Below, piece after piece: positions 5,175 to 20,800 of a stretch of DNA of 23,299 nt. The notes beneath the pieces were generated by a model that was not told the origin of the DNA, searched no databases, and saw only the letters and a list, made by a program, of their open reading frames with translations. A program made the position numbers and the translations under genes. Source of the stretch: a virus; IMG/VR virus record IMGVR_UViG_3300035228_000421, positions 1 through 23,299 of that record. One strand, 5' to 3'. Every line of letters begins with the position of its first letter. Position 1 is the first letter of the stretch.

Positions 5175-6794
5175 TTAGCGTTGTCCCCATGTAATGGCTG
5201 CTTTGACGGTGTTGGATGAGTTATCCAGCGAACGTGCCGCGATCACCAACACATCACCCGCAAGACCGGAGGCGGCAGTGGATTCCCGCGTTAGGTACTG
5301 ACGGGCGAAGCTGAAAATATCCGTCAAGTTTTCAGTGGTGGCGTCTGCATCGCCTGTAAAGAACGCCGCGATCTGTTCTCCTCCTGTAAAGGCACTGATT
5401 GCATTTGAACTGCTGTCCGGGCTGTTCTGTTCAATTGCCGACAGAGTTCCAGTGCTGGCAAAGGTTGTGACGGCGGCAGAGCCTGAGTCCGTCATCGTGG
5501 TGGGGTTTTTCACCAAGATGAACTGGGCTCTGTGTGAGCTGACCATCGACAACAGCAGAGGGAAAACACGCATCAGATTGCGTTTGGATTCGCCTTGATT
5601 ATTGGTAATAAGCTCTTTGATTCTGATAGCCAGCAAAGGCTTGAATGTAGAGGTGCCTACTCCAGTAACTTTTGCGCCATCCTCAGAATAAACATCAAGC
5701 TTTGAAAAATCACCACCATCAATGGTGACCTGGGCTCCATATTTTCTAATATAAGCATTTGCGTTTAACGTTCCGGTCTTCTCTGCCCGGAATTGCATAG
5801 GCAAAGTAGGATTGCCCAATGATGGATAGGGTATTCTGTCACTACAATTTAGGTTGTGACATATCACCCACCTTGCAGTCTTTGCCGTTTCACCAGATGA
5901 TAAATTAGCATCGACAGGGACATAGAACAATAGGCGTGCTCCGGTCCCACCATACCAACCAAATTCCACCCTGCTCATTACTAAGTTAGTGAGCGAAAGT
6001 TGGTGTACTGAATTAGTATCTGCAGCCCCAATTAACGTGGCTCCGTTCGCACCAACCATGGTGTCACCATTCCATTTTGCTCTTGGAACAATCTCCTCCA
6101 TAATTGTCGGAGAAGACGAAACCAATTTATAAATGGTGCCGCTATCAGTGCGCGTTGGTTGTGCTGTCATTACAGCAGCGTCAACATTAAACGTCACTGG
6201 ATCAGAACCCTGAAGCGTGTAACCGTTTAGATGATCTTGAGGGCGCTCACCACTTGAGGTGCGACGTACGAAATAGACCTCGTCGCCTGTAACTCGAACA
6301 AAGTATCCATCGCTTGAGTCGAACATGCCAAACTCTTGTGTGGCATTGGAGTCACGGCTCAGAGCAACGCCAAACGAGGCAGAAGTGATTCGACCGGTCT
6401 GATAAGGGAAACTCTGCTTAGTAATCAAGCGAGCAATATTTCCATTAGAGGCACCAGGAGTGAGTAGTACCTCAGCAGCTGATTGCTGCAAAATATGATT
6501 AACTTGAGTTACTCGAACTCCACCAGTTACTTGTTCATTAGTGGCCCATACATTTGGCGAGATATCCACCAAATTGGTGTCATCGAACACTGCAAGCGGC
6601 GTTTGCGTTCTTGGAATACCAAGCAGGTCATCCCTGACCTGTGATGGTGCCGATAAATTATCAAGAATTGGAATCGGAGGTTGATCCGATGCAACTACAA
6701 CCGGCAGTGAATTTGCACTCGTAGCTTGACCCGCCGGGATCGGCGTAGTCTTGCCTACGGTAATTGTGCTTACACCTTCTGAAACGGTCGCCAT
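5175..6794 (-). CDS. Virion structural/tail-tip protein, paralogue of the downstream gene (539 aa)
   Basis: Opens with ITVGKTTPIPAGQ and SLPVVVASDQPPIPI, a leader common to phage tail and fibre proteins. Residues 45-365 form the block shared with the 715-residue neighbour: DDLLGIPR (56-62), YQTGRITSASFGV, DSSDGYFVRV (159-168), VPRAKWNGDTMVGANG (236-251), RVEFGWYGGTGARLLFYVPV (275-294), ARWVICHNL, LGNPTLPMQFR, and IRKYGAQVTIDGG. Compared with the neighbour it has extra sequence at about 185-232. The C-terminal half differs in detail (FILVKNPTTM, then ALSAFTGG-like sequence, ending VKAAITWGQR). No hydrophobic segment or catalytic motif is seen. It probably assembles at the tail tip, possibly side by side with its paralogue, and could be a receptor-contacting spike. 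Homology between the two is read directly from the translations; function is inferred. Confidence 0.65.
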   Translation of the reverse strand: MATVSEGVSTITVGKTTPIPAGQATSANSLPVVVASDQPPIPILDNLSAPSQVRDDLLGIPRTQTPLAVFDDTNLVDISPNVWATNEQVTGGVRVTQVNHILQQSAAEVLLTPGASNGNIARLITKQSFPYQTGRITSASFGVALSRDSNATQEFGMFDSSDGYFVRVTGDEVYFVRRTSSGERPQDHLNGYTLQGSDPVTFNVDAAVMTAQPTRTDSGTIYKLVSSSPTIMEEIVPRAKWNGDTMVGANGATLIGAADTNSVHQLSLTNLVMSRVEFGWYGGTGARLLFYVPVDANLSSGETAKTARWVICHNLNCSDRIPYPSLGNPTLPMQFRAEKTGTLNANAYIRKYGAQVTIDGGDFSKLDVYSEDGAKVTGVGTSTFKPLLAIRIKELITNNQGESKRNLMRVFPLLLSMVSSHRAQFILVKNPTTMTDSGSAAVTTFASTGTLSAIEQNSPDSSSNAISAFTGGEQIAAFFTGDADATTENLTDIFSFARQYLTRESTAASGLAGDVLVIAARSLDNSSNTVKAAITWGQR

Positions 6795-6803
6795 AATAAA
6801 CCT

Positions 6804-7523
6804 TTAGCTGGTGGAATCTCGTGAAATTCTTGGGATACACTCAAGTGTCCCGATAGCCAATGTGTCTTCTTTATAGACTTTGACTGTGCCTTGAAGCACA
6901 CCTACAGAAAATGCAGGAGCACCTGCAGTCGTAGGATCAATCTCAAAAACTTTACTGCTAATAATACTTAGTTTATTAGCATTGAAATTAACCCCATCAT
7001 AAACTGTTAGGCCTGTACCACTCAAAATAATCTGATCCTCAGAAGTAAGTTCGTGAGGTGCAGAAGTTGTAATCCTTATTTTGTTCGCGGTAACACCACC
7101 GGCGGTAAATGTGTTGCCTGAGGTAATCCCGGTGATGGTTGCTTGATCAACTGAGAAATACTCTCGTAAATCCCAAAGATAAGAGCCTTGTGTTTCGTCG
7201 GTTGAGTCAAGGCCTAGAGCTAGACCTGAAGCCGGCCTGTTTCGCTCTGTATAGCCTAAGGGTGTATTTCGCCCTAGTGCTTCAGTTTGGCGGCTTGTAA
7301 GTTTTAATGCAATCTTGCCTTTGGTAGGGTCTAATTCAACAATTCCAAAGTTACCAACCGTGTGGGTCGGAGTTTGGTTGTCATTAAAAAATCGCCTAAT
7401 ATCAGCAACCAGCACAGAATTGGAAATGTCGTGAGGAGTCCCCCACGGCTTTTCGATAACTAGGTGCAGTTCATCGAAACTATCACCTTCGCGAACTGTG
7501 ACGGCGATATTATCTAGGGCCAT
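6804..7523 (-). CDS. Baseplate/fibre protein, BppU-N-like fold with inserted FCCH-like module (239 aa)
   Basis: Residues 5-125 (VREGDSFDELHLVIEK...DISNSVLVADIRRF...GIVELDPTKGKIALKLTSRQTEAL...SYLWDLRE) follow the pattern of the small beta-sandwich found at the N-terminus of many phage baseplate and fibre proteins: a requested-input strand, an ADIR strand, a 'P--G-I-L-L' strand and a YLWDLR strand. The expected last strand, GTLECIPRISR, appears only at 225-235. The intervening 128-214 (ANKIRITTSAPHELTSEDQIILSGTGLTVYDGVNF...VFEI) looks like an FCCH-like module inserted into the hairpin. Such N-terminal domains usually attach fibres to a baseplate or connect partners. It sits 9 bases from the next gene and 3 bases from the previous one. 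Fold assignment is by pattern only. Confidence 0.5.
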   Translation of the reverse strand: MALDNIAVTVREGDSFDELHLVIEKPWGTPHDISNSVLVADIRRFFNDNQTPTHTVGNFGIVELDPTKGKIALKLTSRQTEALGRNTPLGYTERNRPASGLALGLDSTDETQGSYLWDLREYFSVDQATITGITSGNTFTAGGVTANKIRITTSAPHELTSEDQIILSGTGLTVYDGVNFNANKLSIISSKVFEIDPTTAGAPAFSVGVLQGTVKVYKEDTLAIGTLECIPRISRDSTS

Positions 7524-9051: not shown

Positions 9052-11715
9052 TTAAGGTGTAGCATTATTGATTGTAAATTTAATACTGTTGCGCTTAACC
9101 CTGGAATTTGCGGTCTTTACAGTTGTAGTTGATCCATAACCAATTCCAGAGCTGCTGTCAAAAAGCTCACCATCATCAATAAAGTCAAACTTCCGCTCTA
9201 CATATAAGATTGCAATTATAGAGAACGTACCGTCACCCGACTCTTTGACAGATTGTACTCTGTAGCGTCTAAATGTATTTTCATCGTCCTCGTCAACCAA
9301 AACAAACATCTGAACACTAGAAGGCGTATTAGTGAACGAATTTTGAACAGTAATAGTCTGACTAGATATATTACTTACTTCGCTTCTCTGCGCAATTCCA
9401 GTAGATCCGTATGTATATACATACCAATCTTTTGTCATGTCTGGCGTTCCCAGATCTTTGTCCACAGTTAGCTGAGTGGTAGTTGCAGAAACAATCCTTC
9501 CGCCCGAATTGATTTCAGTCTTGAGTGGATCAGCAATTACAAGAATATCACCAGGAAGCAACATCGCCCCTTCGGTAGCAACCGTAAAAGATACAGTTTC
9601 AGTATTTAAAACATTACTACCTAACACGTAACGCCCTAACCTTCGCGCCTGCTCTCTATCGGTGCAACCCATAGCTCTGACAGTCTTGTGGTTATACCCA
9701 TATCGCTGGATGGCATCGGCGTCCTCTACAACCTCTTTGTTCTCCTTATAAAACTCGGATGGATTGACCCAGCTGACTTCAACGACTGATGTTCTGGCTT
9801 GCCTACCTGTGCCCTCATAGGAGAAGCAAGGGCTGGAAACTCTCCCATCTCCACCTACCTCTTGAATTACATTTGCTTCGGAATACAATCTAAAATTTCG
9901 GTTATAGCTTTTTTGGGCTTGCAGACTTTTTCTGTCTAGAACAAGGGTTATAAAACCCCCGGCGTAAATTAAAGAACCGTTAAATGCGGAGGCCACACTT
10001 CGCACAAGGTCTAAAGCATCCGCTTTACGGTTGATATAAGCATTAAAAGTAAAACGTTTTTTACCGTTGACAATATCATCGCAATACTGTGCTGCTGTAT
10101 AAAAGGACGCAAGATCAATGTCATCCATACTGATACCCGGAGTTGATCTTGTTACTGGGCTATCTGGATGTGTGGTTTCGTAGTCTTGACGACCCAGCCC
10201 ATACCGGGGATTAGTCAATAAATCAAGTAGTACATAAGCCGGATTATCACTGTGGGCATAGCTTACTTTTAGACTGCTACTTAAAACGGGTACTTTCAGA
10301 CCTTTCATTAAAACCTGCAGAGTTGGCATCTGATTAAACTCTGCGGCTTTGAACCTGACTCCAACTAAGGTTGTACCCGGATAAATAAGTTTCTCCGACC
10401 ATGTGACATCTGCAGAAACCAGCTGCACATCACCCTTGGCCCATTGAAAGTTATATTGATTTGCACCACCAGTAAATGTATCCGCGTCGGGAGCTGCACT
10501 TTTGTCGAGTCTGGTTAATTGAACAGATATCGGTACAGATTTGCCGGAGATATTGTAGGTTCTAATTTGTAGTTTTCTTGACTTAAGTTGCCGCTCAATT
10601 ACATCAAACGAATCATTTCCATCGGTATCTACTACAGCATTGCCTGCGCCATCAAACACTCTTAAAACATATTGAAGTGGTTGAATAGGATAGTTGCCAT
10701 CAGCATCCTTGGGTCTGTCGTCGTAGCGGTCATTATCGTGGGGTCGTTCGTCATAATCCCTATAATTGCTTTCGGTATTTCCGCCATCCTTTGGACTTTT
10801 GGTTCTGACCTGATAGCAAGGTCCACGAGTTAAACGGATCTTTAGTTCATCGGCCTCTGTCTGAGTAAAGCTGCGTACAACCTGAGGGTTCGGATCGTTG
10901 TCACCGGGGGTCTGTAGCGTTGACCCAATACCAAGATGAAATCCTGCTGATCTAACACCGGAAATACTTACCGAATCCTGTGTGCCGTCAGTAACTTGAA
11001 TATTATCTATAGCTGTACTGCTTGCTCGTAGTCCGTTGAAATAAATATCTTGACTAGATCCGTTCGGAAAACCCTCAACTGGTCCTTCAGAAACAATAGT
11101 TAGTAAATAACCTTCTTCCTCCTCGATATAAGAAGAAACAATCGGCATGTTGGTGGCCAGGTGAGTGCCATACAACAACGGAATGGGAGTGCCCGCAGTG
11201 CTGGTTTTAGCTGCTCCACCAAACACAGCGTCATCCGCTTCTGAACCCTCTTGTTTCCCCTCTTCAGGCACACCGGGGGCAAAAAGACCTGATATCCCTG
11301 TAAACAACAACCCTGCACCCAAGGTCACCATTGCGGTCTGAATACCGGCAGAGAGTGTCCCTGCTGGGCCAAAGGCCAGAAGCCCGACGCCAGGCATCGC
11401 CAAAGCGAGCAGCAAAACACCGATGGCAATAAGCCCAAAGCTCATACCCTTGCCGCCAAAAAATGCGCCCGTAATAACAGGAACTAAGACGAAATCGCTA
11501 CAACCGAGAGCCATCTCATCGTAAGAAGTAGCTGTCGTGTTATTTCGTTTTACTTGAAAGTAAATTCCGTGTTCATGTGCCGATGTCAGGTACTCTCGAA
11601 AACCTGGGACTAGGTGACACAACGAACGAATAGCTTCGTTTACGTTTTTTACGTTTAGCTGATAATGCCCACCAAAACGCTTTGCTAAAACACCCTCAAG
11701 TCTGATATTCATCAT
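9052..11715 (-). CDS. Fused tail assembly protein I and tip attachment protein J (887 aa)
   Basis: The N-terminal 200 residues have the exact architecture of lambda gpI. A ubiquitin-like domain (RLEGVLAKRFGGHYQLNV at 5-22, then VNEAIRSLCHLVPGFREYL) is followed by a DFVLVPVITGA strand, a glycine/alanine-rich hydrophobic segment at about 90-147, and the TPIPLLYG motif at 176-183. Without a stop it runs on into gpJ sequence: EGYLLTIVSEGPVEGFPNGSSQDIYFNG, GVRFKAAEF, the DLLTNPRYGLG region, YCDDIVNGKKRFTFNAYINRKADALDLVRSVASAFNGSL, QARRLGRYVLGSN and LLPGDILVIADP. gpJ builds the central tail tip and contacts the host. The total is shorter than I plus J in lambda, and the long C-terminal J fibre is missing. 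Two ATG codons stand in tandem; the first overlaps the JAB stop (ATGA), with GAGG about 11 bases upstream. Confidence 0.85.
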   Translation of the reverse strand: MMNIRLEGVLAKRFGGHYQLNVKNVNEAIRSLCHLVPGFREYLTSAHEHGIYFQVKRNNTTATSYDEMALGCSDFVLVPVITGAFFGGKGMSFGLIAIGVLLLALAMPGVGLLAFGPAGTLSAGIQTAMVTLGAGLLFTGISGLFAPGVPEEGKQEGSEADDAVFGGAAKTSTAGTPIPLLYGTHLATNMPIVSSYIEEEEGYLLTIVSEGPVEGFPNGSSQDIYFNGLRASSTAIDNIQVTDGTQDSVSISGVRSAGFHLGIGSTLQTPGDNDPNPQVVRSFTQTEADELKIRLTRGPCYQVRTKSPKDGGNTESNYRDYDERPHDNDRYDDRPKDADGNYPIQPLQYVLRVFDGAGNAVVDTDGNDSFDVIERQLKSRKLQIRTYNISGKSVPISVQLTRLDKSAAPDADTFTGGANQYNFQWAKGDVQLVSADVTWSEKLIYPGTTLVGVRFKAAEFNQMPTLQVLMKGLKVPVLSSSLKVSYAHSDNPAYVLLDLLTNPRYGLGRQDYETTHPDSPVTRSTPGISMDDIDLASFYTAAQYCDDIVNGKKRFTFNAYINRKADALDLVRSVASAFNGSLIYAGGFITLVLDRKSLQAQKSYNRNFRLYSEANVIQEVGGDGRVSSPCFSYEGTGRQARTSVVEVSWVNPSEFYKENKEVVEDADAIQRYGYNHKTVRAMGCTDREQARRLGRYVLGSNVLNTETVSFTVATEGAMLLPGDILVIADPLKTEINSGGRIVSATTTQLTVDKDLGTPDMTKDWYVYTYGSTGIAQRSEVSNISSQTITVQNSFTNTPSSVQMFVLVDEDDENTFRRYRVQSVKESGDGTFSIIAILYVERKFDFIDDGELFDSSSGIGYGSTTTVKTANSRVKRNSIKFTINNATP

Positions 11716-12053
11716 GATCCAAGGATCCTCTCAAAAATTTCTAAGCCTTGTGATTTAGACCATTTCTCAAGACGGTCAAATTCAACCACATAAACATATG
11801 ACGTTAATTCCATATTCGCAGCAACGGTAAAGTCGTGCTCGCTAAACCCATAATCACCTTGTGGATGTGAATGGTAAATAATTTCAGGTCTGTACTTAAG
11901 CCAAGTATCTGCGTCCATCATGAAGCACTCTTCTGGCTTTTCAGCCCTGTTAGGGCATGGAATTGCTTTGCCCTCAACAACACAGCCACACGCCTCCAGA
12001 GGTGCGGCTTTTAACGCATGTTTCGCAATAGCTTTGTGCAATCTTTTACTCAT
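11712..12053 (-). CDS. JAB/JAMM metallopeptidase tail protein, gpK-like without NlpC/P60 (113 aa)
   Basis: A complete JAMM zinc-metallopeptidase signature is present: Glu20 in APLEACGCVVEG, His61 and His63 in IIYHSHP, Ser71 and Asp74 in FSEHD. This gives H-x-H-x7-S-x2-D. In lambda gpK such a domain is followed by an NlpC/P60 peptidoglycan hydrolase, but here the protein ends at 113 residues with FERILGS and no NlpC/P60 part. Order gpL - gpK - gpI/J is that of lambda. Family knowledge says these phage JAB domains act in tail-tip maturation or cell-wall passage; the actual substrate is unknown. Starts with a TAATG overlap after the gpL gene and overlaps the next gene by 4 bases. Confidence 0.85.
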   Translation of the reverse strand: MSKRLHKAIAKHALKAAPLEACGCVVEGKAIPCPNRAEKPEECFMMDADTWLKYRPEIIYHSHPQGDYGFSEHDFTVAANMELTSYVYVVEFDRLEKWSKSQGLEIFERILGS

Positions 12054-13536: not shown

Positions 13537-13898
13537 CAGCTTGCGTATGCCTCTTGTAATGTGAACTGCAAAGTTTCTTTGAACGTATCGCTAACTGTAA
13601 GCATCTTTCGTTGATAACCTCCATCTTTTATTCTGTATCTGCGCGACTCAGTGCTGAACGGGGTCAATGTTGCGACAAAATAATCCCCCTTGATCACCTT
13701 ATCCAGATTTGTTCGCAGTGCTTGTGAATCCGCAGCAGACAAAGGGCGGGTTGTCACGCTGTACTCCGTCATGCGAGTGTTCACTCCATCAGAAGCAATC
13801 TGTTCGTAACCATCACCAAACCCAAATCTTTTTGTTCGGTGTTTTGTGGATTCTTGAACCTCACGGAGAAGATCCAAGCTCAAATTAACGTCGGCCAT
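13536..13898 (-). CDS. Minor tail protein M-like (about 120 aa, start revised)
   Basis: HRTKRFGFGDGYEQIASDGVNTRMTEYSVTTR is the hallmark of phage gpM-type minor tail proteins (lambda M: KVRFGDGYSQRAPAGLN). Strand-like segments to DTFKETLQFTLQEAY follow. gpM connects the tape measure tip to gpL. An open frame reaches an ATG at 13928, but I prefer the ATG at 13898 (MADVNLSLDLL). GGAGG lies about 10 bases upstream of it, whereas the 13928 ATG has none. This choice also reduces the overlap with the tape measure stop (13885) to 14 bases. Total length is about that of lambda gpM (109). The next gene begins with a one-base overlap. Confidence 0.85.
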   Translation of the reverse strand: MADVNLSLDLLREVQESTKHRTKRFGFGDGYEQIASDGVNTRMTEYSVTTRPLSAADSQALRTNLDKVIKGDYFVATLTPFSTESRRYRIKDGGYQRKMLTVSDTFKETLQFTLQEAYAS

Positions 13899-16800
13899 TG
13901 TAAAGAAGTCCTCCAGAACGGCGCTCATCCATGATGACCCGCTTCACAGCAGAGTCGATGGCTTGGCCCAATTTGTTTGCGTTATCCCCTTCAGTTTCGG
14001 TGGAAGCATTTCCACCTTGATCCACATTAACGGTGATATTTGTATTTACATTATTGCCTGCAGGTTTTTTACCCATATCAATTGGAATGGACTTGCCATC
14101 TGGCAAAGGAACAACAGCTTCGTTCATGCCACCTTCTCCAATTAGCGCTCTGGTAGGTCGAGTAACGATGCCGCCCTTTGCCATTTTCTTTTCTCCACCC
14201 CCAAACAGGCCCGAGAGGAATCCCATTAGACCCCCGCCACCTCCGCCGCCGCCGCCACCTAAAGAGGTGCCGGGATCGACACCAAGAGCCGCTTTTAAAA
14301 GGGAGATCATGATCAGTTTTGCAATCATCTGAGTTGCAAGCTTTAAGAAGCTCTTTCCAATATCTGCAAAGAAATTTTGAAATGCTTCGCCAATCGTGGC
14401 GGTGCCTGATACCACATCGTTTATCGCATTCCCCAGACTAGATTCAATCATTCCGGCCATGTCAACCATGCGGCCTTGGATATCGCCCAAATACTGCAGA
14501 TTGTTTGCAACGTATCCGGCTAAATTATTATTGTTGGCCGCTTGAGCCTCGGATAATTCATTGATTGATGTAGTCGCATCCTGCGCTGCTGTATTTAGAT
14601 CTGCAACCGAGATATTATACATATCTTGGTTTAGCTTGCCTGAAATAAGACCCTCATTTAGTTGTGCTAATTTCTCTGAACGCACACGATTTATTTCATT
14701 TATTTGCATCTGTGCTTCGATTTGCTCAGGACTAAATCCTTCCAGCATTAATCGATTGCGTTCTCTTAACGCCTGCGCTTCAAGCTTTGCCCCCTCTGCA
14801 CGCTCTCTGAAGCCAGCTGTAGTCTGAGCAACCATCATCCCTAGCGCGTTGTTGCGCATTTCAAGGGTTTCTCCTGCATATTGCTCTCGTTGATCTTGTG
14901 CTCCCGTCAAGCCTGTTTGTGCCCGTGTAACCCCTGTCTGTGCTCTTGCACGATCAACCGGGTCACTTGCTGCAGCTAGGCGTGCTTGAGCCGCTTTTAG
15001 GCGGTTCTCCGCAGCCGTAATATTTGCGTCGAGCTGTTCTACTTGTGCATCAATGGCTCTGTTGGCTTCGACAAAGCTGTTAATTATTCCGAGCTGTGTT
15101 CTGGCTTCACCTGTCAATAATGCTTCTGCTAATCGATGCCTTTCGGTCAGCAGCTGTGACTCGATCTGAAAACGCTGTCTGACCAGCACAAGCGTTTGTC
15201 TGGCAAGTAGCTGCTCATTGCGCAGCCTGGCGTCAGAGTAAATTTTTGCAATGCGCGGTGCATCCTTGGCTGCTTTCTTGGCTGCTGCTTCACTGGCCTC
15301 ATTTGCTTCCTTTTCCTCCCTTTCACGCTGGTCTGAGACGGTTTCAGGCGGGTTGACCGGGGTCAGACGACTCTTACCGTCAGTTTGGTACTCAATACCT
15401 CCGATCGTTCTGTTCGGAATAATTACATCAATAATCAGCTTCCGACGTTTTGTAAGTTCATCTATCTTTTCCTTAAGCTCATTAATCTTTCGCTGGAATT
15501 CCTTAATTTCAGCTTCTTGACCTCTATAGAATGCAGCCTTTTTAGCGTTGCTTAGGGCCTTTTCATACTTAACAGTAGTTTCCTGCAGCTTTTTAACTTG
15601 CTCATCGACCTCAGATACATCCTCAGTATTCAGCGCATCATCGAATTCCTCCTTCTTTTTAGTTGCGTCTTGTATTGACGCAGCAAGCAGTATAAACGGA
15701 GCAGCAATAAGTGCAATCTTGGCAGCAAGAATCGCAATTGGTATTAACGCCGCCGCACTTGCAAACCCTAGAAGCTTCACCGCTCCTGCAAGAGCTGCAA
15801 CACCAAGTCCTGCCGACGCAGCTACCGCACCAAACGTTTTTAACGGCTTGGGTAGATTGTTAAGAGTATTTAATAGATTAGTTAAAAGCTTAACAAGCGG
15901 TTCAACGACTGGTAGTAACGCATCACCAATAGATATAGCAGCATCGTCAATTGAGTTGCGCAGTGACTGAAAAGTTTGAGATGGTGAAAGTGCTATAAGT
16001 TCTTTGATCTTCTCGCTGTTTGCGTCAAAGCCTCTTGAGAGTGCTCCAACCAGAACCTCAGATGTAATCTTGCCTTCGGAACCTAGCTTTTTTAGTTCTC
16101 CAACAGTGACACCCATTTGTTGGGCAACAGGCACCAAAATACCGGGTATCTGCTCCGCAATAGATCTAAATTCATCACCTTGGAGACGACCACTTCCGAG
16201 GGCTTGTGCCAGTTGTTGAAATGCCACACGGCTCTCATTTGCAGAAGCGCCACTAGCCAGAGCAACCGCATTGAATCCTTTATATACCGTCTGGATTTTT
16301 TCTAGTTCAAATCCAAGTGGACGTAGTCGGGCATATACGTTTGCAAATTCTGATGTTGCGTCTCTTTGTGATTTATTGAACTGAAGTTGGTTACTCTCAA
16401 TGAGTTTTAGAATTTTTGAATATTCCCCATACTCCCTAGATAGAACCGACAGTTTTAGCTGTTGCTGCTCCAGATCTACAGAGGCACCAACAGACCCTGA
16501 AAGTGCTGCGCCAGCCCCAAGGGTCGTCGCAAGAGGCCCCAAACCACCCCCTGCTCCCATTGCACCCCGAACACCCGCAAACGGAGTTCCGACTGCTCCC
16601 CGGACCTTCCCCATAAAGGAGGCTGGTCTTGGTGCAGGGATGCTTGGGGCGCGACCCGGACCTGTTATTTGTGCAGGGCCTGGGGTTTGTAATTTCCCCA
16701 GTCTTGTGAACTCTCTAGCAAAATCTTTGGCTTCTTTTCTGCCCTTTCGTAAGGCCTCAGTAGTTCGAGTAAGTTTTTTATTTAGATGTTCAACCTTGGC

Positions 16801-17052
16801 AGCAGCTTCTTTAGCGCCGTTTACCGTTGCGTCTTTAAACTTGCTTGCAGCTGTTACAGATTTATTAAATTCCTTTCTTGTTTTATTTACCGCGATTGCC
16901 AGCCTGGCGTTTCCTGTCTCTCTTTTCTTAAGCTGATCTTCGGTAGCCTTAGTAGATTTTTCTACTTCCTTCGCAAATTTTGTCTGCTCCTTAATAGCCT
17001 GAGCAGCGCCTTTGACGTTGATGAGATATGTATATTGACCTTGACTTGCCAC
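13885..17052 (-). CDS. Tape measure protein (1055 aa)
   Basis: Sets tail length and is ejected with DNA. Residues 15-120 are coiled-coil and lysine-rich. About 190-400 is the conserved tape-measure N-terminal domain: VDLEQQQLKLSVLSR, ANVYARLRPLGF, VAFQQLAQALGSGRLQGDEFRSIAEQIPGI, KLGSEGKITSEVLVGALSRG, SLRNSIDDAAISIGDALLPVV. A hydrophobic span at about 410-460 could insert into the host membrane. A long helical middle follows, then GNAINDVVSGTATIGEAFQNFFADIGKSFLKLATQMIAKLI, a run of nine glycines (about residue 930-940), and MAKGGIVTRPTRALIGEGGMNEAVVPL typical of the C-terminus. The first codon is GTG, with AAGG about 12 bases upstream; no in-frame ATG precedes it. At about 0.15 nm per residue the tail would be roughly 155 nm. 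It is longer than lambda gpH (853 residues). Confidence 0.92.
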   Translation of the reverse strand: MASQGQYTYLINVKGAAQAIKEQTKFAKEVEKSTKATEDQLKKRETGNARLAIAVNKTRKEFNKSVTAASKFKDATVNGAKEAAAKVEHLNKKLTRTTEALRKGRKEAKDFAREFTRLGKLQTPGPAQITGPGRAPSIPAPRPASFMGKVRGAVGTPFAGVRGAMGAGGGLGPLATTLGAGAALSGSVGASVDLEQQQLKLSVLSREYGEYSKILKLIESNQLQFNKSQRDATSEFANVYARLRPLGFELEKIQTVYKGFNAVALASGASANESRVAFQQLAQALGSGRLQGDEFRSIAEQIPGILVPVAQQMGVTVGELKKLGSEGKITSEVLVGALSRGFDANSEKIKELIALSPSQTFQSLRNSIDDAAISIGDALLPVVEPLVKLLTNLLNTLNNLPKPLKTFGAVAASAGLGVAALAGAVKLLGFASAAALIPIAILAAKIALIAAPFILLAASIQDATKKKEEFDDALNTEDVSEVDEQVKKLQETTVKYEKALSNAKKAAFYRGQEAEIKEFQRKINELKEKIDELTKRRKLIIDVIIPNRTIGGIEYQTDGKSRLTPVNPPETVSDQREREEKEANEASEAAAKKAAKDAPRIAKIYSDARLRNEQLLARQTLVLVRQRFQIESQLLTERHRLAEALLTGEARTQLGIINSFVEANRAIDAQVEQLDANITAAENRLKAAQARLAAASDPVDRARAQTGVTRAQTGLTGAQDQREQYAGETLEMRNNALGMMVAQTTAGFRERAEGAKLEAQALRERNRLMLEGFSPEQIEAQMQINEINRVRSEKLAQLNEGLISGKLNQDMYNISVADLNTAAQDATTSINELSEAQAANNNNLAGYVANNLQYLGDIQGRMVDMAGMIESSLGNAINDVVSGTATIGEAFQNFFADIGKSFLKLATQMIAKLIMISLLKAALGVDPGTSLGGGGGGGGGGLMGFLSGLFGGGEKKMAKGGIVTRPTRALIGEGGMNEAVVPLPDGKSIPIDMGKKPAGNNVNTNITVNVDQGGNASTETEGDNANKLGQAIDSAVKRVIMDERRSGGLLYNGRR

Positions 17053-17083: not shown

Positions 17084-17527
17084 CTATGTGCTTATAACTT
17101 TATTTAAACCTGCAATAACATGAACAGGTAATTTTTTCTGTTGAATGAGTTTTTTAATTACCTCCTGAGTCTCCATTCTAGAAGCACTGTGTTCAGGATC
17201 AAGATCGAACGGCAAATAATCTGTTAAAGGTATTTGCTTGGCTTTGTTTTTACCACCGCTGAAACTTTGAGCAATTGCCACCACAATCGAAGTCAGCCTG
17301 GCTGTAGTGATTGAATAGGTATTCGCTAAGCGTTTATCACGCTCACCACCAAGCCGGATGATTTCAAAGACGCACTGCATAGGCATCTGTAGAAATTCAG
17401 CTTTATCAATGCTTTGTCCTACAGGAGTTGCTTTGAATTCCGTGTAAGCCATCAGTAGATCAACTGCTGAGGTCGCCAAATATTCGCGCAATGTAGCGAT
17501 TCTGGTGTTGACGACCTCAAGGGTTAG
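17084..17527 (-). CDS. T extension of the tail assembly chaperone, made by -1 frameshift
   Basis: This frame has no convincing start of its own. The first in-frame start-like codon is a TTG at 17491 with no ribosome-binding site. The frame is open upstream to the GGGAAAC slip site, where a -1 shift from the upstream chaperone frame would enter at CTA (17525-17527) and add 147 residues. The resulting fusion of about 314 residues parallels lambda gpGT (279). Residues continue LTLEVVNTRIATLREYLATSAV and then helical, polar sequence (EVIKKLIQQKKLPVHVIAGLNKV). In lambda G and GT coat the tape measure and recruit tube subunits. The gene immediately precedes the tape measure, as expected. Confidence 0.85.
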   Translation of the reverse strand, partial: LTLEVVNTRIATLREYLATSAVDLLMAYTEFKATPVGQSIDKAEFLQMPMQCVFEIIRLGGERDKRLANTYSITTARLTSIVVAIAQSFSGGKNKAKQIPLTDYLPFDLDPEHSASRMETQEVIKKLIQQKKLPVHVIAGLNKVIST

Positions 17528-17533
17528 TTTCCC
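17468..17533 (-). promoter_or_regulatory. Programmed -1 ribosomal frameshift signal (slip site plus stem-loop)
   Basis: The heptamer GGGAAAC (17527-17533) lies as G GGA AAC in the zero frame, directly before the TAA stop (17524-17526) of the upstream chaperone gene. Seven bases later TGAGGTCGTCAA (17508-17519) pairs with TTGGCGACCTCA (17468-17479). That is 12 consecutive pairs including one G-U, with a 28-base loop. Slip heptamer, about 7-base spacer and stem fit the classic frameshift design; lambda uses GGGAAAG. The loop contains TCGC/GCGA, which could form a small inner hairpin. Frameshift efficiency and any pseudoknot are unknown. Confidence 0.85.
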
Positions 17534-18027
17534 TCGTCTTCCTCCTCTTCGCCCTCAGGCCAGCCATTGCGCTCCCATTCGACAAACAAATAGATTTCAT
17601 CCAGCAATTTACTGGGCATCTCTTTGGTGTCGCTCTCTTCCCAATCAGAAGTTTTGGCCCACTTGCCTTTTTCTTTGTATTCGGCTCGATAACGCATTAA
17701 CAGCGTCACCGTTTGGATTTTTTGTTCGCTGGCGGATTGACCGCTGCTCTGTATTGCAGCAAGCTCATCCACATAATCGAATAAGACATCTTGATTCTCG
17801 TCGGCGTTTCCTAAAATGTCTAGGGCTTCCTGAACAGGAATATCCCGTTTAAGTGCAAGATCGCGTCCGATCTTTAGCAGCTTATAAGTATTAGCTGCTT
17901 GTTGTCTTCCAACTTCCTCAATACCTTCGATCTCACCGGCAACTAAGTCCTTGTAGATCGGGAAGCGAAAGGGGGAAATGTCATGGTACTTTTTCTGACC
18001 AAAAAATACTTTTGAATACTTACTCAT
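17524..18027 (-). CDS. Tail assembly chaperone, gpG-like (167 aa)
   Basis: Encodes the short chaperone (G-type) that precedes the tape measure. The sequence is largely helical (IYKDLVAGEIEGIEEVGRQQAANTYKLLKIGRDLALKR; ALDILGNADENQDVLFDYVDEL; QTVTLLMRYRAEYKEKGKW). It ends in a strongly acidic tail (EGEEEEDEGN) where the slip site lies. I recognise it by position, length, acidic tail and the adjoining frameshift signal rather than by clear sequence similarity to lambda G. It starts 4 bases inside the previous gene (ATGA). Family role: with its frameshifted GT form it binds the tape measure and tube subunit during tail assembly, and is not in the finished virion. Confidence 0.8.
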   Translation of the reverse strand: MSKYSKVFFGQKKYHDISPFRFPIYKDLVAGEIEGIEEVGRQQAANTYKLLKIGRDLALKRDIPVQEALDILGNADENQDVLFDYVDELAAIQSSGQSASEQKIQTVTLLMRYRAEYKEKGKWAKTSDWEESDTKEMPSKLLDEIYLFVEWERNGWPEGEEEEDEGN

Positions 18028-18254
18028 TTGATGATGTAAAACGAGGTATCAGCGGCCACAACCTCAAAGGGTTGATTCGCGCCTTTTTCAGAAATTTCTA
18101 CTAATAAACTAGCACCATCTTCCGTCACAAGTTCTAAAGGCGAGGACGTAGAGGGGGCGATGTAAACCGCCCCAACCTCTAGTAGCTCTTTGTTTGATCT
18201 GCAATTAACAAAATAAGAACGTCCGTCCTTAGATAAGAGCAGATCAAACTTCAT
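18024..18254 (-). CDS. Unknown small protein between tail tube and chaperone (76 aa)
   Basis: Not recognised. The 76 residues (MKFDLLLSKDGRSYFVNCRSNKELLEVGAVYIAP...LELVTEDGASLLVEISEKG...FEVVAADTSFYIIK) look like alternating short strands, consistent with one small beta barrel or sandwich. The start overlaps the tail tube stop by one base, and the end overlaps the chaperone start by four (ATGA), so it is tightly co-translated with both. In lambda, G directly follows V, so this is an additional gene at this place. A minor tail or assembly factor is likely but unproven. Confidence 0.5.
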   Translation of the reverse strand: MKFDLLLSKDGRSYFVNCRSNKELLEVGAVYIAPSTSSPLELVTEDGASLLVEISEKGANQPFEVVAADTSFYIIK

Positions 18255-19683: not shown

Positions 19684-20061
19684 TTAACCTGCTGCACCGG
19701 TTTGTTCAAACTGTCCAGTAAAATTCTGAAATTGGCTTGCTCTGGCGTAGGTCAACGTGTTTGACCCAAGGTCCGTTATCCGTAGCTTGCCGGTCACGCC
19801 GTTGACTGTTGCCTCGGCAAACATCCCGGCTTTAATCTTTGAACTGAAGGTCGAAGGATTTAACAACTTGCCTGAGCAACTTGTCTCAATCTCGTTAACG
19901 CCTTCTTTGTTTTCTGTAAATTTGGAGTTCAGCTGAACATTACAGACATAGGTCTGAGATTGATTTCGCTGAATCCTGTTACCAGTCGTCGGGTCCGTGA
20001 CGTATGACGAATAGACCTGGAAGACCAAAATCGCGTTGTCAAACGGCGCGTAGGAACCCAT
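19684..20061 (-). CDS. Probable head-tail stopper/adaptor protein (125 aa)
   Basis: Starts MGSYAPFDNAILVFQVYSSY and continues with short strands (QTYVCNVQLNSKFTEN, IETSCSGKLLNPSTFSSKIKAGMFAEATVNGVTGKLRITDLGSNTLTYARASQFQNFTGQFEQTG). All-beta with a length near 125 fits a stopper or head-tail joining protein (position of lambda gpFII). The gene lies between the DUF4054-type connector and the gp10-like protein. The ATG overlaps the previous stop (TAATG). Function is inferred from position; no diagnostic motif is visible. Confidence 0.5.
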   Translation of the reverse strand: MGSYAPFDNAILVFQVYSSYVTDPTTGNRIQRNQSQTYVCNVQLNSKFTENKEGVNEIETSCSGKLLNPSTFSSKIKAGMFAEATVNGVTGKLRITDLGSNTLTYARASQFQNFTGQFEQTGAAG

Positions 20062-20390
20062 TAGAACGTAAACCCGGTGATATTGACTAGCTCCTCCCTG
20101 AGATACAGATAGGTCGCTCCGTAGGTTGTGTCGGCAAGTGTGTAACCCGCCGCACCCCTGTAGTTAATAGTTCTGACGTTTGTTGCAACGCCGATCTGCT
20201 GTCCAATGGACTGCGTTCGAGATGCCAACAGATGGGCCGTCATGTAATTGACGGCGTCATCGTGCTGATTACCCCAAATACCCGAGTCGTTTTGGCGCTG
20301 TGCCTCGGCAATGGTCGCAGTCACAACAGCCGCTTCCAGGTTGTCAAACTCTGGAAAGCGAGCCAAAAATGTTGTGCTGGTAACTGCCAT
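20061..20390 (-). CDS. DUF4054-type head-tail connector protein (109 aa)
   Basis: The sequence TTFLARFPEFDNLEAAVVTATIAEAQRQNDSGIWGNQHDDAVNYMTAHLLASRT is the pattern of the DUF4054 family: 'FR-rFPEF----d--i---l--A' followed by 'W----d-A--ylaAHlla'. YGATYLYLREELVNITG closes the domain. Members are helical head-completion/adaptor proteins next to the capsid module in siphoviruses and myoviruses, analogous to HK97 gp6-type adaptors. It overlaps its neighbours by one base on each side. Confidence 0.85.
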   Translation of the reverse strand: MAVTSTTFLARFPEFDNLEAAVVTATIAEAQRQNDSGIWGNQHDDAVNYMTAHLLASRTQSIGQQIGVATNVRTINYRGAAGYTLADTTYGATYLYLREELVNITGFTF

Positions 20391-20800
20391 TAACCTTCAC
20401 CCGATGTGACTGCTGTAATCCGTTTTTGAATAGCGTTTTTGATGCGAATCCGGTTTTCTGCCAGATCCCATTCCTTGAGAAGCTCAAGGTCAAAACACTT
20501 ATTCACTAAATCCAAAGACGATTTGACAGACTTAGTTGAAAGTCCACCTTTCGCCACTGGTGAATCAGAAATAACCTCTACATCGTCTTCTACTCGAAGC
20601 GCACCGATCTCCAATAATTCGGGGACCAATGGGAGCTTTTTAATCTCCTCCCAAAGAGCAGCGTCAATATCACGATTGACACCGCCCTTTAGTTCTACAT
20701 ATTGGGTAGATCCCGCAGGTCCCGTGATTAAAGAGAAGCCTAAAGAGACATCCTTATCACGGGCAGGATTTTCGAGTTGAGGGTTGTAAATTACGAGCAT
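20390..20800 (-). CDS. Small head-associated protein of unknown role (136 aa)
   Basis: Begins MLVIYNPQLENPARDKDVSLGFSLITGPAGSTQYVELKGGVNRDIDAALWEEIKKLPLVPELLEIGALRV. The stretch 'G-N-VD--LWe--k--p-v--Ll--Gal-v' is one I have seen in small proteins beside phage capsid genes, but no clear function is known. The C-terminal half (GGLSTKSVKSSLDLVNKCFDLELLKEWDLAENRIRIKNAIQKRI) is helical and charged, like a small lysine-rich binding domain. It follows the capsid gene by 22 bases with a poor ribosome-binding site. It might decorate the head or assist connector loading. Confidence 0.5.
   Translation of the reverse strand: MLVIYNPQLENPARDKDVSLGFSLITGPAGSTQYVELKGGVNRDIDAALWEEIKKLPLVPELLEIGALRVEDDVEVISDSPVAKGGLSTKSVKSSLDLVNKCFDLELLKEWDLAENRIRIKNAIQKRITAVTSGEG

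Follow-up and report, generated by a model that had tools for sequence, protein, structure and literature searches.

A predicted lambda G/GT-type programmed -1 frameshift in the tail assembly genes of an environmental virus contig

The window, which is the whole stretch of DNA that was analysed (a 23,299-base virus contig from IMG/VR, probably an incomplete genome), carries two overlapping frames between the genes for the major tail protein and the tape measure protein. We read them as a tail assembly chaperone pair expressed by a programmed -1 ribosomal frameshift of the lambda G/GT type, with a probability of roughly 0.96. The gene order is major tail protein, 76-aa ORF, G, GT and tape measure, and only the 76-aa ORF intervenes before G. 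Table 1 collects the coordinates of the features.

Table 1. Features of the predicted G/GT system and its neighbours in the window
Feature	Position	Strand	Basis
-1 slippery heptamer G_GGA_AAC	17527..17533	-	X XXY YYZ phase; unchanged across the window and its 40 close relatives; all 82 loci have an in-phase XXXAAAZ heptamer
Zero-frame stop TAA of the G-like gene	17524..17526	-	Immediately 3' of the heptamer; sequence and close relatives
7-nt spacer UAACCCU, heptamer to stem, stop included	17520..17526	-	Sequence
5' arm of the 12-bp stem, UGAGGUCGUCAA	17508..17519	-	RNA fold; covariation; top covarying helix in the unbiased scan
28-nt loop; its small internal hairpin varies among relatives	17480..17507	-	RNA fold; helix scan
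3' arm of the stem, UUGGCGACCUCA	17468..17479	-	RNA fold; covariation; helix scan
TTG likely to be picked by a gene caller as a separate T start	17489..17491	-	Ribosome-binding site absent; not kept in relatives
T-like -1 frame extension, 147 codons and stop	17084..17527	-	Open frame; relatives; dN/dS 0.14; shuffles
G-like tail assembly chaperone (predicted), 167 aa, main zero-frame product	17524..18027	-	Homologues; place in the gene order, after major tail protein and before tape measure
76-aa ORF, conserved	18024..18254	-	Follows the major tail protein gene and precedes G
Major tail (tube) protein, 200 aa	18254..18856	-	17/26 homologues match PHROG 1407 major tail protein, best 2.6e-5; model
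Tape measure protein, 1055 aa, GTG start	13885..17052	-	PHROG 339, E = 6e-44; Pfam TMP_3, E = 5e-33

The slip site and its conservation

At the end of the G-like gene the minus strand reads ...GAC GAG GGA AAC TAA CCC TTG AGG.... The final two sense codons of the zero frame lie within the heptamer and the stop adjoins it directly, so that the earlier note, which had placed GGGAAAC in the X XXY YYZ phase beside the stop, is confirmed by direct reading. In-phase heptamers of this type are no rarity, with 25 among the window's 7,310 codon positions, and the one described here is the only one found less than 90 nt from the stop of its own gene. A chance origin is excluded because the heptamer is conserved across 82 loci.

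These loci are the window, 80 IMG/VR contigs and the Synechococcus phage S-CBS4, with identities down to about 30%. A search with the G protein gave 40 IMG/VR contigs at 66-96% identity, and a profile search gave 115, of which 80 were kept. The 82 are not all independent, as some are near-identical, and the close clade amounts to 32 distinct sequences. S-CBS4 is the only clear named relative, and the nearest named matches of the capsid and J-like proteins also lie in this phage. A nucleotide search against named phages gave no real match, and two scans of bacterial genomes found no prophage relatives.

It was found that all 82 loci carry an in-phase -1 heptamer (64 GGGAAAC, 15 GGGAAAG, 1 GGGAAAA and 2 AAAAAAA), and that the stop is as invariant as GGGAAAC itself in the window and all 40 close relatives. 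The heptamer lies 7-67 nt from the stop, farther upstream in the distant relatives, with its phase kept. S-CBS4 and L118, which are the most distant of all the relatives, are the two with a run of seven A residues, A_AAA_AAA. Judged from these alignments, the conserved phase is best understood as a record of selection for slipping and not as a chance motif.

The -1 frame and the rival readings

From CTA (17527) the -1 frame runs to TAG at 17086-17084, leaving 31 nt to the GTG of the tape measure gene, and the 147 residues up to the tape measure boundary that the earlier note had counted are borne out. Together with G, the extension makes up a predicted GT-like product of 314 aa with the junction ...EDEGN-LTLEV.... 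The frame was open over a comparable length in none of 5,000 shuffles, it is open for 144-171 codons in every relative with a long enough contig, and a T homologue is present in all 10 records tested. Both the G frame and the -1 frame are under purifying selection; for the latter the median dN/dS is 0.14 (64-73 usable pairs, with synonymous sites near saturation).

The strongest rival would make T a separate protein with its own start, at the TTG at 17491 or another codon, reached by re-initiation or translational coupling after the G stop, while the heptamer would be incidental. The TTG lies about 32 nt past the G stop, some relatives have a TTG or GTG within the first 25 codons, and a tetramer loosely resembling a Shine-Dalgarno sequence precedes a candidate start in 21 of the 82 loci. 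However, the first candidates in the window (TTG at codon 13 after the slip, TTG at codon 17 and ATG at codon 26) all lack a Shine-Dalgarno-like sequence, as the earlier note had stated for its TTG, and no start in the downstream frame is conserved across the 82 loci. ATG, GTG and TTG are all absent through codon 45 in 32 loci, and ATG and GTG in 54 (a few of these contigs are truncated). Residue conservation in the T alignment begins at the slip site itself (LTxE), and 23 of the 41 close loci carry, immediately 5' of GGG, a TGA that belongs to the -1 frame, so the frame cannot be reached there from an earlier start. A separate start would also leave unexplained the heptamer in every locus and the covarying stem described below. 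Relatives with a broken heptamer or stem and an intact separate start, which the earlier note had named as evidence against its reading, were sought and the opposite was found. On comparison of the sequences we consider a separate start very improbable and largely refuted.

Slippage of RNA polymerase on a homopolymer run, rather than of the ribosome, could also produce a fusion, and it is conceivable on the seven-A run of S-CBS4 and L118. But 80 of the 82 loci carry GGGAAAC, GGGAAAG or GGGAAAA and no long homopolymer, and the conserved phase and the stem at a fixed distance fit the ribosome, which leaves this explanation still less probable than a separate start. Errors of sequencing or assembly can break a single fused gene in two and so mimic a frameshift between adjoining frames in a metagenome contig, but chance or artefact is the least credible account of all, given the same arrangement in 82 records from many samples, the selection on both frames and the shuffles.

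The downstream stem

Stimulatory RNA structures downstream of tail slip sites are common but not universal. The earlier note had described a 7-base spacer, a 12-bp stem with one G-U pair and a 28-base loop, and both the sequence and the RNA fold agree with it: the stem has 12 pairs, one of them U-G, and it was recovered in the fold of 17440-17540 (-29.5 kcal/mol, z = -2.73 against dinucleotide shuffles). For the stretch fitted to the stem, z is -4.6 as the best of four lengths.

The earlier note had proposed to look for covariation of slip site and stem in related phages. In the close clade the heptamer does not vary, and the stem is kept with compensatory changes. Among the 32 distinct close sequences, 89% of the stem cells are paired. 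Cells changed on both sides number 48, compared with 14.6 +/- 3.9 in shuffles, and 0 of 500 shuffles reached as high a count; the covariation score is 0.356 against 0.144 in shuffles. When the partner is slid by 1-3 columns the score falls to 0.004-0.09 and the signal is lost. For example, the seventh pair is found as G-C, A-U, U-A, C-G, G-U and U-G within the close clade. The sixth pair is a C-A mismatch in 17 of the 32 sequences, and therefore the helix tolerates one mismatch. In an unbiased scan of all possible helices over 120 nt, the 12-bp stem ranks first and is alone in covarying strongly. A pseudoknot had also been raised for 17440-17540; pairings of the loop with downstream bases found no convincing support in the same scan. 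No known Rfam family was detected in the window.

The covarying bases are mostly synonymous third codon positions of the -1 frame (GTC with GCG, GTT with GCA, GTG with GCC), and constraint on the protein consequently fails to explain the covariation. Most T codons vary freely. In the first 60 only GAG (the fourth) and ACC (the nineteenth) are perfectly kept at synonymous sites, and both lie within the stem. The codon analysis shows the same fixity for GGA AAC, the final two codons of G.

Single-sequence folding (best of four lengths) predicted a different stem in the corresponding position for several other clades, with z falling below -5 in some of them, and no significant stem in the two A_AAA_AAA relatives. 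These folds are only suggestive of turnover of the stem between clades and of its absence with the seven-A heptamer.

Under the G/GT reading, most ribosomes would translate the G-like gene to its TAA and release the 167-aa chaperone. A ribosome that has GGA in its P site and AAC in its A site would be halted by the stem lying 7 nt farther on, and in a fraction of ribosomes both tRNAs would re-pair on GGG AAA and thereby enter the -1 frame, where translation for 147 codons would complete the 314-aa fusion. In lambda, where gpG and gpGT are made at a ratio of 30:1, the role of the G part is to coat the tape measure protein and that of the T part is to recruit the major tail protein (PMC5009743). 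By analogy, the G part here would coat the tape measure protein, the T part of the few fusion molecules would recruit the major tail protein, and tail assembly would need a fixed G:GT ratio. We infer in this way the occurrence and rate of slipping and the chaperone role of the products. More tentatively, and with less than even odds in our view, the heptamer may stay nearly fixed in this phage group while the stem turns over, in which case the stem would offset a weak A-site codon (AAC) and steady the G:GT ratio as its own sequence changes. Natural variants would then allow a trade-off between heptamer and stem to be measured.

Known systems and the gene neighbourhood

The G/GT-type chaperone reading proposed in the earlier note is supported by the heptamer in 82 of 82 loci, the covarying stem, and the major tail protein and tape measure neighbours. 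As in lambda, the order is major tail protein, G, T overlap and tape measure (V-G-GT-H), save for the extra 76-aa ORF, a GGGAAA heptamer for a -1 slip lies near the end of G (the lambda site is G_GGA_AAG, record positions 10109-10115 of NC_001416), and two products with a common N-terminus are predicted. The third A-site base is C here and G in lambda, the heptamer abuts the stop here whereas lambda G continues past it, and a strong covarying stem sets the present site apart. No sequence similarity to lambda G and T was detectable (hhalign probabilities below 1%), and membership in the G/GT type therefore rests on architecture and not on homology. Neither G nor T gave a named Pfam or PHROGs match above chance, alone or with every homologue scanned, and no solved structure was matched by the G sequence. 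The fold search with the G model, which is mediocre (pLDDT 64), returned no confident named match, its best BFVD hit being unnamed with a TM of 0.35.

A nearly identical layout has been published for gp18/gp19 of Burkholderia phage KL1: GGGAAAC is the predicted slip site, the stop that ends the shorter protein follows directly, and mfold places a stem-loop close behind (PMC3483164). As described there, KL1 differs in that another tail gene separates the pair from the tape measure gene and in that the stop is TGA, and its frameshift passage reports no covariation test (PMC3483164). KL1 was not among the matches of the G protein search in phages. The slip site G_GGA_AAC has also been reported in the tail chaperone genes of the haloarchaeal virus HCTV-1 (PMC5009743) and of Caulobacter phage Colossus (PMC3556154); the likeness is in the slip site, and the hosts are unrelated.

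S-CBS4 provides a true homologue of both halves: G is 28.8% identical (E = 2e-12), T could be aligned, a -1 heptamer lies within the overlap and the tape measure gene comes next. Its heptamer is A_AAA_AAA, 46 nt before the stop, it has no significant stem, and the two genes, gp032 and gp033, are annotated as hypothetical proteins, the second with a later ATG. In our locus numbering (L042, HQ698895.1), positions 6001-6968 (record 19779-20746) look like one frameshifted G/GT pair, with A_AAA_AAA at L042:6498-6504 and the -1 frame open to 6968. The gp032 gene probably starts 69 nt earlier than annotated, at the ATG at 6001. The S-CBS4 literature, as far as it was accessible, held no description of a tail-gene frameshift.

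The lambda frameshift is well known, and the finding is sound but ordinary. It gives a predicted function, as a tail assembly chaperone pair, to a phage protein family unnamed in PHROGs and Pfam. Ordinary gene calling would wrongly split the pair in some 80 environmental contigs, as it did in S-CBS4. What is contributed is a stimulatory stem for a tail frameshift that is backed by covariation, where the usual evidence is a single folded sequence, and a corrected reading of gp032/gp033.

For the major tail protein, a structure model (pLDDT 77) built from an alignment without the S-CBS4 row matches tail tube structures (E 6e-6), namely 80alpha, monocin and, less strongly, lambda. Two members of the alignment of its homologues match the Pfam Big_5 Ig-like domain, and in the distant relatives L111 and L113-L116 the homologue is longer (332-342 aa against about 195). 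The 76-aa ORF overlaps the start of G (ATGA) and is kept in its position in nearly all relatives. A 113-aa K-like protein is encoded at 11712-12053 (-), and the only domain detected in it is the JAB metallopeptidase (Prok-JAB). The 887-aa protein encoded at 9052-11715 (-) has a match to tail assembly protein I (PHROG 32) over residues 1-200 and then one to central fibre J (PHROG 31) over residues 431-874; it is an apparent I-J fusion, and its S-CBS4 counterpart consists of two annotated genes.
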